The translations under genes were made by a program, and so were the position numbers. DNA of 64,000 nt from Luteibacter sp. UNC138MFCol5.1 (lineage in GTDB: Bacteria; Pseudomonadota; Gammaproteobacteria; Xanthomonadales; Rhodanobacteraceae), in assembly GCF_900110505.1 (NCBI RefSeq), contig NZ_FODZ01000002.1, positions 725,227-789,226 of the forward strand, read 5' to 3'. Shown piece after piece: positions 6,862 to 28,930 of this stretch (positions are counted from its first letter, which is position 1; the number at the start of each line of letters is the position of its first letter). The notes beneath the pieces were generated by a model. That model was not told the DNA's origin. It searched no databases and saw nothing but the letters and a program-made list of their open reading frames with translations.

Positions 6862-8280
<1,419 letters not shown>

Positions 8281-9909: not shown

Positions 9910-11283
9910 TTACTTGCTGGCCGTCAGCGCGTCGAACTGCTGCTGGAGGTAGCTGCTGGTCCCGGCCAGCTTGGTCATCATCGCGTCGAGCGCGCTGTAC
10001 TGTTTGGTCAGGCGCTTCGAGTAATCGTCCATCTGGACGTCGAAGGCGGCCATTTCGTCCTTGATGTCCTTGGCCTTGTTCTGCAGGTTGGCCGTGCGCT
10101 GGGTGAGGATGCCGTTCGAAGCCGTCCACCCCGCGATCAGCTTGTCCAGTTTCGGCGCGACACCGTTGTCTCCGCTCAGGAGGCTCTGCGCCTCCTTCGG
10201 GTTGTTCGCCATCACCTTCGTGAGCTTGTTGGTGTCGAGCTTGAGCGTGCCGTCGGTCTGAAAGGCCACGCCCAGGTCGCTCAGCGAACGCGGCCCTGAC
10301 GTGTTCCCCGCGAACTGCGAGCCCAGCACCGTCGCCACCTGGCTCTTGATCGAGTTGACCGTGGCGTCGCCGATCAGGGCGCCGACCTGCTGGTTGGTCT
10401 GGTCGTACTTCGTGAGCTGCTTGTAGGTCGCGATGAACGAGTTGTAGGCCGTGACGAGCGAGTTGAGCGCGGTCGTGACCGCACCGGGATCGTTCGTGAT
10501 CGTCAGCGTCGTCGGCTGGTCCGGATTCGTGGGGGTGACCGCCGTCAGCGAAAGCGTCACGCCATCGATCGCCGACGTCGCCGTATTCGACGCGCTCGTC
10601 GCCTTGACTCCGTCGACCCAGAAGACCGCGTCCGCCGCGGGCGTCTGCGCGGTACCGGTGGCCGGATCGAAGTCGAGCTGAGCCAGGCCGCCATCACCGC
10701 CGCTGGTCGTGACCGTGAACGCGTTGGCGGCGCCGGTCGACACGGACGTCAGCACCAGGTGGGCGCCGTCCGAACCAGTGACGATGCTGGCGGTGACGCC
10801 AGGATTGTCCTTCGCCTTGTTGATGGCGTCGCGGACGTTCTCGAGGGTGTTGGCGCCGGAAGCGACATCGAGACTCATCGACTTGTCGCCGATCGCGATC
10901 TTGAGGGTGCCCGTACCGATCGCCGTCTTGCTGTCGCTGAACGCGCTCGACATCGTCTTTTGCGCGGTCGCCAGCTGATCGACCTTGATCTTGTAGGTGT
11001 TGGGCTGCGCGGTCGAGTCGACCGTCGCGGTGAGCGCCTTGCTGTCGCCCACGCTGACTTTCTGCGTTTTGAACGCCGTGCCGTCCGTCAGCGCCTTGAT
11101 GGCGCTCTGCAGGCTCGTCAGCGACGAGGTGAAGTTACCGACGGCCGAAATCTGGGTGGTGTTCGCCTGCGAGTCCGCGGCGTATTTCGCGTCCTGCGCC
11201 TTGCGCTTGTTCGCGACGAGGTTCGTGACGATCGACGCGACGTCGATCGAGCTGGAACCGATGTTGACGGGACTGGTGGCCAT
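9910..11283 (-). CDS. fliD: Flagellar filament cap protein FliD (HAP2)
   Basis: FliD forms the pentameric cap at the filament tip and folds incoming flagellin. The 457-residue protein has the conserved N-terminal export/coiled region (IGSSSIDVASIVTNLV), a variable centre and a C-terminal coiled coil beginning near residue 390 with the pattern YSKRLTKQYSALDAMMTKL. Residues 165-260 are Thr/Ala/Gly-rich surface domain sequence. It is first in the fliD-fliS-fliT-like-PilZ operon, preceded by a sigma-54-type promoter at 11370-11384. Length is typical. Confidence 0.95.
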   Translation of the reverse strand: MATSPVNIGSSSIDVASIVTNLVANKRKAQDAKYAADSQANTTQISAVGNFTSSLTSLQSAIKALTDGTAFKTQKVSVGDSKALTATVDSTAQPNTYKIKVDQLATAQKTMSSAFSDSKTAIGTGTLKIAIGDKSMSLDVASGANTLENVRDAINKAKDNPGVTASIVTGSDGAHLVLTSVSTGAANAFTVTTSGGDGGLAQLDFDPATGTAQTPAADAVFWVDGVKATSASNTATSAIDGVTLSLTAVTPTNPDQPTTLTITNDPGAVTTALNSLVTAYNSFIATYKQLTKYDQTNQQVGALIGDATVNSIKSQVATVLGSQFAGNTSGPRSLSDLGVAFQTDGTLKLDTNKLTKVMANNPKEAQSLLSGDNGVAPKLDKLIAGWTASNGILTQRTANLQNKAKDIKDEMAAFDVQMDDYSKRLTKQYSALDAMMTKLAGTSSYLQQQFDALTASK

Positions 11284-11330
11284 GAAGCTCTCCTGGAAGA
11301 CGCCTCACTGCCCTGGGCGCCAATTTGTCG

Positions 11331-23485: not shown

Positions 23486-23523
23486 GGGTCCTGCCCCCTC
23501 GTGACCTTGGCGAAGAGGCAGGA

Positions 23524-23538
23524 GCAAGTCGCGTGCCA
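23524..23538 (-). promoter_or_regulatory. Sigma-54 promoter of the flgB operon
   Basis: On the minus strand TGGCAC, five bases, TTGC is an exact match to the consensus -24/-12 boxes. Start site is expected near 23513, about 28 bases before the flgB ATG. This is the best sigma-54 site of the window. Confidence 0.92.
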
Positions 23539-23669: not shown

Positions 23670-24587
23670 TCAGGCCGGGAGCAGTTCGAGGACGGTCGTC
23701 GCCAGGATGTCGGGCTGGAACTTGGCGATGAAGCGGTCGGCGCCGACGCGGTCGACCATCGCCTCGTTGAACACCCCGCTCAGGGAGCTGTGCAGCAGGA
23801 CCTTCAGATGACGCAGCTGCGCGTCGTCGCGGATGGCGCGCGTGAGGGCGTAGCCGTCCATCAGGGGCATTTCGATGTCGGACACGACCAGCGCCACGCG
23901 CTCGTCGACCGGGCCCATGGCCAGGGTGCCGAGCACGTCCAGGCCTTCACGGCCGTCCTTCGCCACCACGCACTCGAGGTCCATCTTGCGGAACAGGTCG
24001 ACCAGCTGCGTGCGTGCCACGAGGGAATCGTCGACCACCAGCACCCGGCGGTTGCGCGCGTGCTGGACCACGGCGGCCTGCTGGATGCGGTCCGAGAGCT
24101 CGACCGCCTGGGGGTCGACGCTCGCCAGCACCTGCTCCACGTCGACCACCGCGAGGAGGTCGCCATCGAGCCGCGTGACGGCGTTGACGCGGGCGCCGTA
24201 ACCCAGCGCGGCGGGCGGCGCCGTCATGTTGGCACCGTCGACATGCACGATGCGGTCGACGTCGGACACCAGAAAACCCTGCACCGAGCGATTGAACTCG
24301 GTCACGATCAGGTGCGCCGTCTCCACCGCGGCGAGCGGTGGGTAGCCCATGGCGGCCGCGAGGTCGATCACGGGAATGGTGTTGCCGCGGTAGTCGAAGC
24401 TGCCCGCGACCAGCGCGTGCATGCTCGGCATGCGCTCCAGCCGCGGCCGGCGCAGCACTTCGCGCACCTTGAAGACGTTGATGCCGAAGGCCTGGCCGTC
24501 GCCCAGGCGGAACAGCAGCATCGCCACGCGGTTGTGCCCGGCCAGCCGGGTGAAGGTTTCGACGGTGTCGAGGAGCGGTCGGGCCAT
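23670..24587 (-). CDS. cheV: Chemotaxis coupling protein CheV
   Basis: CheV is a CheW-receiver hybrid that couples chemoreceptors to CheA and can be phosphorylated. The 305-residue protein has an N-terminal CheW domain (about 15-160; FGINVFKVREVLR, then YRGNTIPVIDLAAAMG) and a C-terminal receiver domain (about 180-300) with the acidic pair VVDDS at about 184-188, phospho-acceptor Asp at about 237 in VVSDIEMPLMDG, and Lys in RFIAKF. Start ATG at 24587 gives the standard CheV beginning; the frame upstream is non-coding and overlaps the promoter. A sigma-28-type site lies at 24622-24648. Confidence 0.95.
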   Translation of the reverse strand: MARPLLDTVETFTRLAGHNRVAMLLFRLGDGQAFGINVFKVREVLRRPRLERMPSMHALVAGSFDYRGNTIPVIDLAAAMGYPPLAAVETAHLIVTEFNRSVQGFLVSDVDRIVHVDGANMTAPPAALGYGARVNAVTRLDGDLLAVVDVEQVLASVDPQAVELSDRIQQAAVVQHARNRRVLVVDDSLVARTQLVDLFRKMDLECVVAKDGREGLDVLGTLAMGPVDERVALVVSDIEMPLMDGYALTRAIRDDAQLRHLKVLLHSSLSGVFNEAMVDRVGADRFIAKFQPDILATTVLELLPA

Positions 24588-24621
24588 GGCTGCGCGGCGT
24601 CTGCGGATGGTGTCGCGAACC

Positions 24622-24648
24622 GTATCGGCCAGCCGGCGCGTTTCTGTA
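24622..24648 (-). promoter_or_regulatory. Sigma-28-type promoter of cheV
   Basis: On the minus strand TACAGAAA, 11 bases, GCCGATAC fits the sigma-28 layout: seven of eight bases in the -10 and a weaker -35. It points into cheV, about 35 bases upstream of its start. Confidence 0.7.
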
Positions 24649-24657
24649 GCCGGGCCG

Positions 24658-24673
24658 TGGCATGTGGATTGCA
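24658..24673 (+). promoter_or_regulatory. Sigma-54-type promoter of the chemoreceptor-flgA operon
   Basis: TGGCAT, five bases, TTGCA matches the -24/-12 consensus with one mismatch. The start site is expected near 24684, about 57 bases before the chemoreceptor ATG. It is divergent from, and only ten bases away from, the cheV sigma-28-type promoter. Confidence 0.75.
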
Positions 24674-24740
24674 TGGCTCAAGATGTCACGCCCCCTGACG
24701 ATCTACTGGGGCGACCACTAAAACAAGCGAAAGCGAAGCC

Positions 24741-26048
24741 ATGACCCTCCTCTGGAGCCAGCACGTCCGTCTCATCGCCCACGCGGCCGCCAGCGGCGAC
24801 GCCGCGCGCGTCCGTGCGCTGTCCGCCCAGTACCCGGCGGCCGCCAGCGCGCTCGGCGCGCTGCTCAAGCCCGCGGAACCGCGCACCGTGGCGGCGACCA
24901 CCATCCAGGCGATCGAGCAGCAGGGGATGGTCCTGACGAACGCGCAGGCGCTCGGCGCGACGCTGCAGGAACTCGGCGCGGCCGTCGAGGGCGCCCGCGA
25001 TACCGCCGGTCGTTTGACGGAAGCCGGCGCCAGGATTTCGACGGCCATCGACCAGGCCCACGCGGGCGTGGCCGGCATGGCCGACGCCGGCGGCCAGGGT
25101 CAGGCGACCTCGGCCGAACTCGACGGCCAGCTGCGTCTTCTGCGGAGCGCCCTGTCGGGCATGAGCCGCAACCACGCGCAGTTCTCCGAATACTTCACGG
25201 CCATCCGCAAGCTGACGGCCACGGTGCAGGACATCGCGCACCAGACCAACCTCGTCGCGCTGAACGCCGCGATCGAGGCGGCCCGCGCCGGCGAGGCCGG
25301 CCGTGGGTTCGCGGTCGTGGCCGACGAGGTCAAGCAGCTGGCCGAGAAGACCACGCAGGCCACCGCGGAGATCGACCAGGTCACGCAGGCGGTCGGCGAA
25401 TTCGCCGGTCACCTGGACGACGCGGTCCAGACCAGCCTTCGCCGCCTCGACCAGTCCCAGGCGGGCATCGCGGGCATGCAGGCCTCACTGGGGCGCGTCG
25501 ACGACGCGGTCCGCGGCGCCCGTGGCAGCCTCGACGCCGCCCGCGAAGGCATGTCCGCCCTCACGGGCCGTGTCGCCACCATCCAGTCGACGCAGGCCTC
25601 GCTGGGCCGTGTCACCAACGAGGCACGCCGTCAGGCCGACGCCGCCGCGCGCGCCGCGGTGCTCGCGCACCGGCTCGGCCTCGCCCGCCTGGAAACGGAA
25701 GGCAATCTCGACGCCGCCAGCCTCAGCCAGATGATCCGCGAAGCGAGCCAGGGCCTGCGCTACGCGCTCGAGCTCGCCTCGCGCGATCCGTCGGGCCTCG
25801 ATCGTCGCTGGCTCGATACCACGCCGCTGATGCGCTGCATCGACCAGCTGCGCGCGTTGCGCCCGGACGGCACGGCCGATGGCGTCCGGGCCGCCGGCGA
25901 GCGCTTCTCCGTACTCGCATCGCAGTACGCGATCACGCTCGGCGAAGGGCGTCACGCCGACGCCAGCCATATGCTTCCGGGCCTGACGCGCGAGCTCGAC
26001 GCCATCGCCCAGGGCCTCTCCGCCTCGCTCGCGGAGCGCGCGGCGTGA
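24741..26048 (+). CDS. Soluble methyl-accepting chemotaxis-like protein
   Basis: The 435-residue protein has no signal peptide and no membrane segment. Residues about 160-205 form the conserved MCP signalling hairpin ([19 protein letters not shown], then [19 protein letters not shown]), which contacts CheA and CheW/CheV. It is flanked by about 90-residue helical coiled-coil arms. The N-terminal 50 residues and the C-terminal stretch after about 325 match no sensory domain I know, and no CheR/CheB tether pentapeptide ends the protein. It overlaps flgA by four bases and has a sigma-54-type promoter, so it is expressed with flagellar class II genes. Its signal is unknown; a cytoplasmic energy or assembly sensor is only a guess. 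Confidence 0.88.
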
Positions 26049-26746
26049 TCCATCGTCTCCTCGCCGCCGGCGTCGTGCTTCCCGCGCTGCTCGCCTGCCC
26101 GCTTCCCGCGGCGGCGACGCAGTCGCTGGACGCCGTGCGCGCGCTGGCGGTGGACTGGCTGCAGGCGAACCGCAATCTTCCCGGTGCCCGCATGACTGCA
26201 GAAGCCGGTCCGCTCGACAACCGCCTGCGCCTGGCGGATTGCGCCGCCCCGTTGCAGGCGTCGCTGCCGGGCAACCGCCCGCTGGGCGCGCGTGCCAGTG
26301 TCGTCGTGCGCTGCCCGGTGCCCGGCGGCTGGACCGTCCGCGTGCCGGTCAAGGTGCAGATGTTCGCGAGCGTGCTGGTCACCAGCCGCCCGCTGGCGCG
26401 GGGCGACGGTCCGGGCGCGGCCGACGTGCATAGCGAGGAGCGCGACGTCGCCAGCCTCGCCTATGGCTACATCGCCAGCCTCGACCAGATCGGCGGCCGC
26501 GCACTTGCTCGGCCATTGAACGCGGGCACCGTCCTGACCCCTGGCATGCTGGCCGGACGCCAGGCCGTGCGTATCGGCGACGCGGTGAGCATGGAAGCCA
26601 CCGTCGACGGCGTCACCATCCGTGCCGAGGGCGTCGCGATGGGCGCCGGCGACGCGGGCGCACGACTCAAGGTCCGCAACGCGTCGTCGGGCAAGGTGCT
26701 CGACGCCGTGGTCAGCGGACCCGGGGTGGTCGCGGTACTGCCCTGA
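26045..26746 (+). CDS. flgA: Flagellar P-ring assembly chaperone FlgA
   Basis: FlgA is the periplasmic chaperone needed for FlgI to form the P ring. The 233-residue product has a Sec signal peptide (about 1-24, ending LPAAA), a middle region with [12 protein letters not shown] (the conserved Cys motif) and a C-terminal SAF domain (about 105-230: [16 protein letters not shown], then [15 protein letters not shown]). The start is GTG at 26045, overlapping the chemoreceptor stop (GTGA). Length is typical. Confidence 0.95.
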
Positions 26747-26852: not shown

Positions 26853-27161
26853 ATGACGACGACGATCAAACCCGGCATCCAGGCTCCCCAGCCGCAGGTG
26901 CAGCTGCGCACCCAGAATCCCGCGACCGGTTCCGCCGGTTCGGCGCAGGGCGCCGCCACGGTTCGTCCGACCGACGACAGCGTCAGCATCACCGATTCGG
27001 CCAAGGCGCTCGACGCCGCCAGCCGCGGCGAAGGCATCGACACGAAGCGCGTGGACGAAATCCGCGCCCGCCTCGCCGACGGCACGTACAAGCCCGACGC
27101 CCAGGCCATCGCCAGCAAGTTTCTCGCGCTGGAAGGCCAGATGGGTAGCGGCAAGGCATGA
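26853..27161 (+). CDS. flgM: Anti-sigma-28 factor FlgM
   Basis: FlgM binds FliA in the cytoplasm and is exported after hook completion, releasing class III genes. The 102-residue protein is disordered and Pro/Gln/Thr-rich at the N-terminus; the C-terminal FliA-binding part contains DSVSITDSAKALDAAS and VDEIRARLADGTYKPDAQAIASKF, the last being the conserved helix. Start ATG at 26853 with a GAGGGAA ribosome-binding site; upstream frame overlaps flgA. Its stop overlaps flgN by four bases. Confidence 0.94.
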   Translation: MTTTIKPGIQAPQPQVQLRTQNPATGSAGSAQGAATVRPTDDSVSITDSAKALDAASRGEGIDTKRVDEIRARLADGTYKPDAQAIASKFLALEGQMGSGKA

Positions 27162-27601
27162 GCGCAGCGCACGGCGCCGATTTCGATGCCGCGCTGGTCG
27201 CCGTGATGGGCGACCTGGCGCGTGACATCGACGCCCTGCACGCCTGCCTCATCGAAGAACGCCTCGCGCTCGACGCCACGGATCCGCAGGCGCTCGACGC
27301 CGCGACCCGCGCGAAGGGCGAGCTGCTCGACCGCATCGAATCGCTCGACGTCGAGCGCCGCCAACTCAGCGAGGCGGCCAGTCTCGACAGCCTCGCCGAC
27401 GCGCGCTGGGTCGTCGTCTTCGAGCGCCTTCGCGAATGCAGGCAGCTCAACGAAACCAACGGCCGCATCGTCGGCCAGCGCATCGGTCACGTGCGCCAGG
27501 CATTGGCCCTGATATCGGGCGATTCGCCCGGTGGATCGACTTACGGCCGCAACGGAGAGGCGAAGATAAACCTCCGTTCCGCGACGCTTGCACAGGTCTG
27601 A
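27158..27601 (+). CDS. flgN: Flagellar export chaperone FlgN
   Basis: FlgN is the cytoplasmic chaperone of the junction proteins FlgK and FlgL. The 147-residue product is all-helical with the typical opening (a long helix with LHACLIEERLAL DATD, then AKGELLDRIESLDVERRQL) and a C-terminal helix ending NETNGRIVGQRIGHVRQAL. It follows flgM with a four-base overlap, the standard arrangement. Sequence conservation is modest, so the position adds much of the confidence. Confidence 0.9.
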   Translation: MSAAHGADFDAALVAVMGDLARDIDALHACLIEERLALDATDPQALDAATRAKGELLDRIESLDVERRQLSEAASLDSLADARWVVVFERLRECRQLNETNGRIVGQRIGHVRQALALISGDSPGGSTYGRNGEAKINLRSATLAQV

Positions 27602-27655: not shown

Positions 27656-28930
27656 ATGGCAGCAACTCCCCAGCCGACAGCGGTGAACGACGACGGCATC
27701 CTTCCGATCGTCCGCATTCCCATCCTCGACAAGAAGCAGTCGCTGTTCGCCTACGAACTGCTCTTTCCGCGCCCGGTCGGCAGCGACATCGACGCCGCCT
27801 CCCTCGCACATACCCAGGCCACCCTGAGCGCCATCGCCGACGGCAGCCTCAAGCGCCTGGTCCGAGACAACCGCGCGTTCCTGCACATGTCCCGCGACCT
27901 GCTCATGGAGCACGCGGACATCCTCCGCCACAACGCGCGTCTCGGCGCCAGCATCAGCGCCGACGTCGGTCTCGACGAACAGCTGCTGGCGAAACTGCGC
28001 GAGCTGAAGGGGCACGGCTGCCTGTTCATGCTCGAGGACTTTAACCTCCCCGCCGATCCCGAGCATCGCGCCGGCGTCGACGCGCTGCTGCGCATCGTCC
28101 AGTTCGCCAAGATCGCGGTGGATCACCGCCATCCCGTCGCCGCGCGCGCACACATGGATTACGTCCACGCGTTCGGCGTGAAGGTGATCGTGACCGGCAT
28201 CGACACGCACGAGACGTTCGTCGACTACGCCGACCAGGACGTCGATGGGTTCCAGGGCAAGTACCTGCTGCGTCCGGAACGCGTGGACATGCCACGCCTC
28301 ACGCCGAGCAAGCTGGGCGTGCTGCGTCTCATGGGTGCGCTGCAGGATCCCGACAACGGTCCCGTCGAACTGGGCAAGATCATCCGCGACGACGCGATCC
28401 TCAGCTACAAGCTGCTCGGCTGCGTCAACTCCGCGTATTTCGCCCTGCCCCGCCAGCTCAAGTCCGTGGAACAGGCGGCCGTGTTCTTCGGCGTCAACCG
28501 CATGCGCAACTGGATCTTCACCATGGCCGTCTCGGGCATGGACGAACGTCCGCCCGAACTGCTCCGCCTCGCCCTCATTCGCGCGCACATGTGCGAGAAG
28601 CTCGCGCGTGCCATCAAGCCCGAGCTCCAGGAAATGGCGTTCACCGCCGGCCTGTTCTCGCTGCTCGACACGCTGATGAACGCCTCGATGTCCTACGTGC
28701 TCGAACACCTGCCGCTGGCGATCGAGATCCGCGAAGCGCTCCTGGACGGCACCGGACCCTTCGCCGCGATCCTCGACCAGATCCGCCATTGGGAGCAGGG
28801 CGAGCTTGAGAACGGCTCGACGCTCGACGAGGAACACGTGGCCAAGATGGCCACGGTGTACGTCGAGGCGGCCAGCTGGGCCGACCACGTCTACGCGTTC
28901 GCGGACGGCACGCAGACGGCGGAAGCCTGA
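27656..28930 (+). CDS. EAL/HDOD-domain signalling protein (YuxH family)
   Basis: The 424-residue cytoplasmic protein has an EAL-like N-terminal half (about 15-205) and a HDOD half (about 210-400). In the EAL part the key motif reads YELLF rather than EAL and the DDFG loop is EDFN, so phosphodiesterase activity on cyclic di-GMP is unlikely; the domain may only bind or regulate. The HDOD part has DDAILSYKLLGCVNSAYF and VEQAAVFFGVNRMRNWIF. It lies 54 bases after flgN on the same strand, and such proteins often sit beside flagellar or c-di-GMP genes, so a role in the motile/sessile choice is plausible. Confidence 0.88.
   Translation: MAATPQPTAVNDDGILPIVRIPILDKKQSLFAYELLFPRPVGSDIDAASLAHTQATLSAIADGSLKRLVRDNRAFLHMSRDLLMEHADILRHNARLGASISADVGLDEQLLAKLRELKGHGCLFMLEDFNLPADPEHRAGVDALLRIVQFAKIAVDHRHPVAARAHMDYVHAFGVKVIVTGIDTHETFVDYADQDVDGFQGKYLLRPERVDMPRLTPSKLGVLRLMGALQDPDNGPVELGKIIRDDAILSYKLLGCVNSAYFALPRQLKSVEQAAVFFGVNRMRNWIFTMAVSGMDERPPELLRLALIRAHMCEKLARAIKPELQEMAFTAGLFSLLDTLMNASMSYVLEHLPLAIEIREALLDGTGPFAAILDQIRHWEQGELENGSTLDEEHVAKMATVYVEAASWADHVYAFADGTQTAEA

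Follow-up and report, generated by a model that had tools for sequence, protein, structure and literature searches.

A gene for a soluble chemoreceptor of 435 aa lies at 24741-26048 on the forward strand of the window, the whole 64-kb stretch of Luteibacter DNA that was analysed. It is followed on the same strand by flgA (26045-26746), which encodes the P-ring chaperone (ChapFlgA, E 1e-26; TIGR03170 above cut-off), by flgM (26853-27161; Pfam, NCBIfam), which encodes the anti-sigma-28 factor, and by flgN (27158-27601), which encodes an export chaperone (PF05130, E 2e-16). Upstream, cheV (23670-24590, reverse strand), whose product joins a CheW domain to a receiver (Pfam), is read divergently from a start at 24590. 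The receptor frame and its neighbours, cheV and flgA-flgM-flgN, were verified by translation, Pfam and NCBIfam. The TGA of the receptor and the GTG start of flgA share a GTGA at 26045-26048 (+), the four-base overlap that the first-pass annotation of this DNA had described; it would couple translation of the two genes. Directly after flgN is a gene for an EAL-HDOD protein (27656-28930, forward strand) with an EAL domain barely above cut-off, and matches to it occur near flgN in three other loci (L051, L056, L057).

A cytoplasmic chemoreceptor with an intact signalling tip

The receptor belongs to the MCP, or chemoreceptor, superfamily: MCPsignal (PF00015) covers residues 144-265 (E 5e-28; 98.4 bits against a curated cut-off of 34.6) and the tip of the signalling hairpin is intact. 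Besides MCPsignal, Pfam gave nothing over cut-off on the whole receptor. No membrane segment is present, the highest 19-residue Kyte-Doolittle mean being 1.01 in the window protein and at most 1.58 across 80 orthologues, and the C-terminus reads ASLAERAA, with no CheR/CheB pentapeptide. This pentapeptide is also missing from many true MCPs. A scan for methylation motifs found one motif-like stretch in the window protein, at residues 72-81, and some match in 43 of the 80 orthologues. Judged by its sequence, the protein is a cytoplasmic MCP with an intact tip, in agreement with the first reading of it as a soluble receptor with an MCP hairpin and no pentapeptide, and the tip would bind CheA, CheW and CheV, as expected of the MCP family. 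To our knowledge, soluble receptors are common, and the inputs and kinases of most of them are not known.

An AlphaFold2 model of the full receptor (20 orthologues; mean pLDDT 84, pTM 0.49) has an unbroken helix over residues 50-319 with further helices to 434, and a fold search with this model returned chemoreceptor hairpins. The N-terminal part, residues 1-49 (24741-24887, +), is modelled as three short helices spanning 3-42, with pLDDT below 50 at 1-3 and 43-49, and S6, Q7, G19 and P32 are conserved in it (alignment A1). The coiled-coil signalling hairpin, residues 50-319 (24888-25697, +), matches the chemoreceptor structures 2ch7 and 1qu7, and both an alignment of 20 orthologues and a reading of tips find its tip, residues 162-204 (25224-25352, +), to be nearly invariant. 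No heptad length class was assigned to the hairpin: single-sequence alignments to solved receptors hinted at extra length relative to the E. coli type, but profile alignments gave no net length difference.

The C-terminal helical bundle

Beyond the hairpin is a helical bundle, residues 325-434 (25713-26042, +), defined from the AlphaFold2 model and the alignment and lacking a Pfam match; indeed, no Pfam family matched residues 291-435 of the window protein. Modelled alone from 46 sequences, the C-terminal part again forms a helical bundle (pLDDT 87, pTM 0.81). R333, E334, P350, D354, R356, W357 and G403 are identical in all 46 aligned C-terminal regions, and the same alignment contains one conserved His and no conserved Cys (Cys in at most 23/46 in any column).

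The first-pass annotation had recognised no known sensor domain at either end, and the Pfam, NCBIfam and fold searches gave none. Pfam and NCBIfam searches of the receptor and Pfam searches of 14 and 46 orthologous C-terminal parts produced no consistent family. PKHD_C, DUF1631 and MLTR_LBD each appeared in one to three members at E 0.01 or worse and were put down to chance. The TarH HMM matched the C-terminal regions weakly, with a best E of 0.047 in 2/46 and of 0.0088 in 1/14. CZB was not among the Pfam matches of the 46 regions at E≤5, a search in which the HMMER filters drop most matches above 0.1; from these sequences, the bundle does not appear to be a CZB-type domain of the TlpD kind. 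Foldseek returned nothing below 1e-3 with the C-terminal model, a result that excludes no fold family. VIA-align gave Z scores of 10.7-12.6 among the matches listed, with talin, PsbQ and designed bundles scoring much like bacterial sensor domains such as PcaY_PP; since unrelated bundles score alike, the scores reflect a common arrangement only and indicate no function. The bundle, perhaps together with the short N-terminal helices, would be the likely input for an intracellular cue.

Promoters and conservation of the locus

A strict match to the sigma-54 promoter pattern, TGGCATGTGGATTGCA, lies at 24658-24673 (+) before the receptor-flgA operon, and nine bases away is a sigma-28 (FliA)-type site for cheV, TACA-N15-GCCGATAC, at 24622-24648 (-). 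Both promoters, which the first-pass annotation had also picked out, are pattern matches. The strict sigma-54 pattern occurs twice in the 64 kb, against 0.07 in shuffles, and the second site (23523-23538, -) is placed before flgB. Genome-wide (4.2 Mb) there are 11 matches, against two for the reversed control, and the genes downstream of five of the 11 are glnA, fliN, fliL, flgB and the receptor (names from reading). A loose sigma-54 pattern with two mismatches was not above chance in the window and proved uninformative.

Two overlapping sets of orthologue loci, with at least ten Luteibacter genomes in common, were compared: one of 30 loci and one of 80, the latter being the best 80 of 87 found with two peptide patterns in Luteibacter, Dyella, Rhodanobacter, Frateuria, Fulvimonas, Pinirhizobacter and MAGs, a set that cannot show absence elsewhere. 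The sigma-54 site was present in 30/30 loci at -76 to -85 and, as a strict match, in 80/80 (best 80 of 87) at -76 to -97, against 0.015 loci expected from local shuffles. A sigma-28 site for cheV was found in 26/30 loci and, among the best 80 of 87, in 68 within 400 bp and in 65 within 250 bp, against 0.5 expected at the shorter distance. Automatic calling missed cheV in L013, L029-L031 and L037 of the 30-locus set. The window also encodes FleQ, a sigma-54 activator with a FleQ domain (6862-8280, reverse strand; L153:12089-13507; Sigma54_activat 3e-73, FleQ 6e-11). The conserved -24/-12 promoter and the presence of fleQ in the window would place the receptor in the sigma-54/FleQ early flagellar class, and RpoN with FleQ would transcribe receptor-flgA alongside the early flagellar genes. 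Given its position at the head of an early flagellar operon, the receptor is probably made whenever the flagellum is built.

The cheV/mcp/flgA arrangement, which the first-pass annotation had proposed to check across the family, is conserved. Divergent cheV lies upstream of the receptor in 75/80 loci (best 80 of 87), and flgA is directly downstream, on the same strand, in 75/75 receptor genomes. In all 79 loci with FlgA (best 80 of 87), the FlgA frame can be read back without a stop to an NTG that overlaps the receptor TGA (ATG 60, GTG 14, CTG 5); the 80th locus is truncated by a contig end. The five loci with no cheV within 3.1 kb upstream of the receptor (L081, L103, L131, L132, L134) are all from Dyella, and in L131, L132 and L134 flgB is found there; cheV seems to have been lost or moved in these five and the receptor kept.

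Several loci depart from the common layout in other ways. In L021, L035, L059 and L137 the receptor-cheV distance is about 0.7-1.4 kb rather than the usual 0.15-0.3 kb, with something in between and the sigma-54 site kept. A longer receptor-flgA frame near 2806 in L010 (G002) reads PSFLRRQESR after the receptor stop, which we take to resemble the translation of a REP-type repeat that entered the signal region of flgA. The flgA match directly after the receptor is in two pieces at G161:C1:4717397-4717760, possibly through a frameshift or sequencing error. The same receptor arrangement occurs in L124, on a contig labelled Candidatus Eremiobacteraeota that is perhaps a mis-binned contig of Rhodanobacteraceae.

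Distribution and origin of the receptor

A search of 147 family genomes for the C-terminal region of the receptor (alignment A2) gave 75 genomes with it, once per genome. A sample of 200 genomes of the order gave the region in 24 genomes of the same family and one weak 50-residue match elsewhere (G277); outside the order, the search for this domain was by peptide pattern only. FlgA is present in 85 of the 147 family genomes, 75 with the receptor and 10 without. Among the 80 family genomes with a full FlgA, or with FlgA at this site, 75 have the receptor, two a diverged receptor and three none. The genomes with a full FlgA but no match to alignment A2 are G028, G062, G099, G105 and G131. G028 and G099 carry a diverged receptor between cheV and flgA. 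The flagellated genomes G062 and G105 lack a receptor; each encodes one MCP and one CheA, the latter of ChpA type with an open frame of about 1900 residues. G131 has flagella and both flagellar CheA types, and in it cheV adjoins flgA with no receptor between. Two further genomes that were read, G065 and G172, have no receptor or cheV nearby; G033, G091 and G181 were not read, and G033 and G181, with weak partial FlgA matches and no receptor, were left out of the flgA-linkage count. Because the flagellated, receptor-less G062 and G105 are also without a flagellar CheA, the receptor seems to follow flagellar chemotaxis rather than flagellar assembly, with one exception among the genomes read.

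As an outgroup, 23 genomes from other families of the order were used, seven of which have FlgA, and all seven regions were read. In four of them cheV and flgA are divergent neighbours, in two flgB takes the place of cheV and in one the contig ends; none of the seven has a receptor between cheV or flgB and flgA. A sigma-54-like site precedes flgA in 7/7 by a relaxed pattern and in 3/7 by the strict one, and a sigma-28 site for cheV is present in 3/4 of the cheV-flgA regions. Weak MCP-like matches in L219 and L223 (E 0.002-0.004) lie away from flgA and were set aside. Comparison with these outgroups suggests that the divergent position of cheV is older than the receptor, and that flgA probably already had its sigma-54 promoter when the receptor gene arrived; the gene would have entered between this promoter and the flgA start in an ancestor of most flagellated Rhodanobacteraceae. 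Insertion behind an existing flgA promoter explains the 'early' placement of the receptor without any special function. CheV is regarded as an adaptor that serves certain receptors (PMC4742279). Since the position of cheV appears to predate the receptor and five Dyella loci have no cheV there, linkage alone does not show that CheV serves this receptor.

Chemoreceptors and CheA kinases of receptor genomes

The Luteibacter genome encodes seven MCPs and three CheAs. One CheA (open frame 2139) is near PilJ. A second is clustered with CheW, the membrane MCP L001, CheR, CheD, CheB and a second MCP, L007. The third has fliA, cheY and cheZ before it and motCD-, parA- and cheW-like genes after it (several names from reading), and this fliA-linked cluster contains no MCP, CheR or CheB. 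We take it to be an F6-type cluster, the grouping of the two che clusters being drawn from gene order. FliA-type sites at L154:14459-14485 (-) and 11259-11285 (-) lie before STAS-cheY-cheA and cheW-mcp of the second che cluster.

Receptor genomes carry at least four MCPs, which rules out the receptor as the sole receptor of flagellar chemotaxis, and 12 have exactly four. In 7/7 of the four-MCP genomes that were read (7 of the 12), each with three CheAs, the scheme is the same: PilJ is about 5 kb or less from a ChpA-type CheA, and the CheR cluster has two MCPs about 4 kb apart, the nearer of them 2.6-3.6 kb from the CheA of that cluster. That leaves the soluble receptor as the one MCP not in a CheA cluster, and the fliA-linked CheA as the one CheA with no MCP in its cluster. 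No MCP lies closer than 9.6 kb to the fliA-linked CheA in these seven genomes; in all of them and in the Luteibacter genome, this CheA and the receptor are on different contigs or separated by about 38 kb or more. The CheR-cluster CheA is 11 kb from the receptor in G086 and less than 4 kb in G028.

The tips differ by class in the 25 of 28 that were read, which left out L158-L160: AHQTN in the soluble receptor, AFQTN in the cluster MCP, AEQTN in PilJ and AEETN in the second cluster MCP. The last of these (L007; L177-L183), a conserved MCP present at the CheR/CheB cluster in all seven genomes read, also has an unusual descending helix (HSNQFNE and similar). The order fleN-fliA-cheY-cheZ-cheA is contiguous in 10/10 genomes (the Luteibacter genome and nine others), and the stretch from fliA to cheA contains no sigma-28 site in any of the ten. 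In 2/9 relatives, fleN contains a sigma-28-like site that could drive fliA-cheYZA. In 7/10 genomes a sigma-28 site lies shortly before the other CheA cluster.

Discussion

On balance, the data lean towards a cytoplasmic receptor that was inserted into the flgA operon, serves the fliA-linked CheA and has the C-terminal bundle as its likely input. The likely kinase would be the CheA of the fliA-cheY-cheZ-cheA-motCD-parA-cheW cluster, and the output would pass through CheY to the flagellar switch. This reading is favoured by the intact, nearly invariant tip, by the sigma-54 site at every one of the best 80 of 87 loci and by flgA downstream in every receptor genome. The fliA-linked CheA is the best partner by elimination and by promoter class, as no FliA-type site was found before either it or the receptor. 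Against this, the pairing is by elimination, the receptor is far from the proposed kinase, and the receptors of G028 and G086 are nearer the other CheA. Furthermore, G131 has the fliA-linked CheA type and no receptor, and the sigma-28-like sites in fleN of two of nine relatives could drive the fliA-linked cluster. MCPs often serve unlinked kinases.

The least unlikely of the alternatives is that the receptor is mainly structural, its end domains recruiting or nucleating the chemosensory complex at the flagellated pole with no ligand involved. Its production with the early flagellar genes and the ParA-like gene in the fliA-linked che cluster (identified from reading) would fit such a role, as would H. 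pylori TlpD, a soluble receptor of 433 aa whose C-terminal end is required for polar localisation and function in the part of PMC13001251 available. The seven residues that are identical in all C-terminal regions suit a signal domain equally well, however.

It also appears unlikely that the receptor serves as an additional input to the other flagella-linked array, that of the CheA with CheR, CheB, CheD and membrane MCPs. This CheA type is present in 10/10 receptor genomes whose CheAs were examined, including the two with diverged receptors, and the short distances in G028 and G086 point the same way. On the other hand, one tip position is H in the soluble receptor and F in the cluster MCPs read, a position that is presumably a trimer contact in E. 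coli Tsr, and the promoter class differs, with a FliA-type site before most of the CheR clusters.

An extension of the favoured pairing, in which the receptor and the fliA-linked CheA, with no CheR or CheB in its cluster, are made before the FliA-controlled array and the bundle senses energy, export or assembly as an internal state, must be rated improbable; if it were true, the motor would from the outset receive a cytoplasmic input, perhaps a non-adapting one. Least probable of all is that the receptor monitors flagellar assembly, for example the state of the P-ring or of export, and reports to CheA: the constant flgA linkage and sigma-54 control would suit this, but the linkage is accounted for by insertion into an existing operon, Pfam found no export or basal-body domain in the receptor, and the receptor-less flagellated genomes, G062 and G105 without a flagellar CheA and G131 with both types, speak against the assembly part of the original suggestion that the receptor monitors assembly or internal energy.

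In a family that has two che clusters linked to flagella, the favoured reading connects the receptor with a flagellar component through their shared operon and, by elimination, with a single kinase. Its partner and its input can be tested for directly through the receptor gene, and its C-terminal domain is a defined, undescribed structure to solve. In the open-access part of the literature, the only part covered, no description of a receptor in the flgA operon of Rhodanobacteraceae was found.

Among known systems, the nearest for the locus is that of Pseudomonas, where flgA is a class II gene (sigma-54/FleQ) and the che genes are class IV (FliA) in Table 1 of PMC8036289, the part of that paper used here, and where the FleQ ChIP-seq targets given in the accessible part of PMC6120874 include cheV-3 and flgA, with adjacent locus numbers. 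As in Luteibacter, a flgA of the sigma-54/FleQ class has cheV for a neighbour; the difference is that the consecutive locus numbers suggest no receptor between cheV-3 and flgA, whereas here an MCP gene precedes flgA. The first-pass annotation had thought an early flgA beside a late cheV unusual, a view that these classes do not support. The combination is in fact ordinary, as a receptor-less pair of cheV and flgA is found in four of the seven outgroup regions and in one family member. Within the same genome, the membrane MCP L001 of the second che cluster shares the MCP signalling domain family with the receptor but has a membrane segment (Kyte-Doolittle 3.04), three methylation-motif matches, a WKEF end, an AFQTN tip and FliA-type sites before its cluster.

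For the C-terminal bundle, the model superposes on entries for PcaY_PP (such as 6s33), a ligand-binding domain of 4HB/TarH type, with Z 11.4-12.2 over 113-115 residues, but the receptor bundle is cytoplasmic and C-terminal, and talin, PsbQ and designed bundles score equally. The closest whole-protein parallel is TlpD: as described in the sections of PMC13001251 available, it is 433 aa long against 435 here, its hairpin spans 152-287 against the Pfam match at 144-265, and it too is cytoplasmic, with an unannotated N-terminus and a domain C-terminal to the hairpin. That domain is a CZB in TlpD, whereas the Luteibacter receptor has no CZB match, has a sigma-54 site and heads the flgA operon. Soluble MCPs with a C-terminal domain are already known in the form of TlpD; what is described here is a receptor that heads the flgA operon and carries an undescribed end domain.
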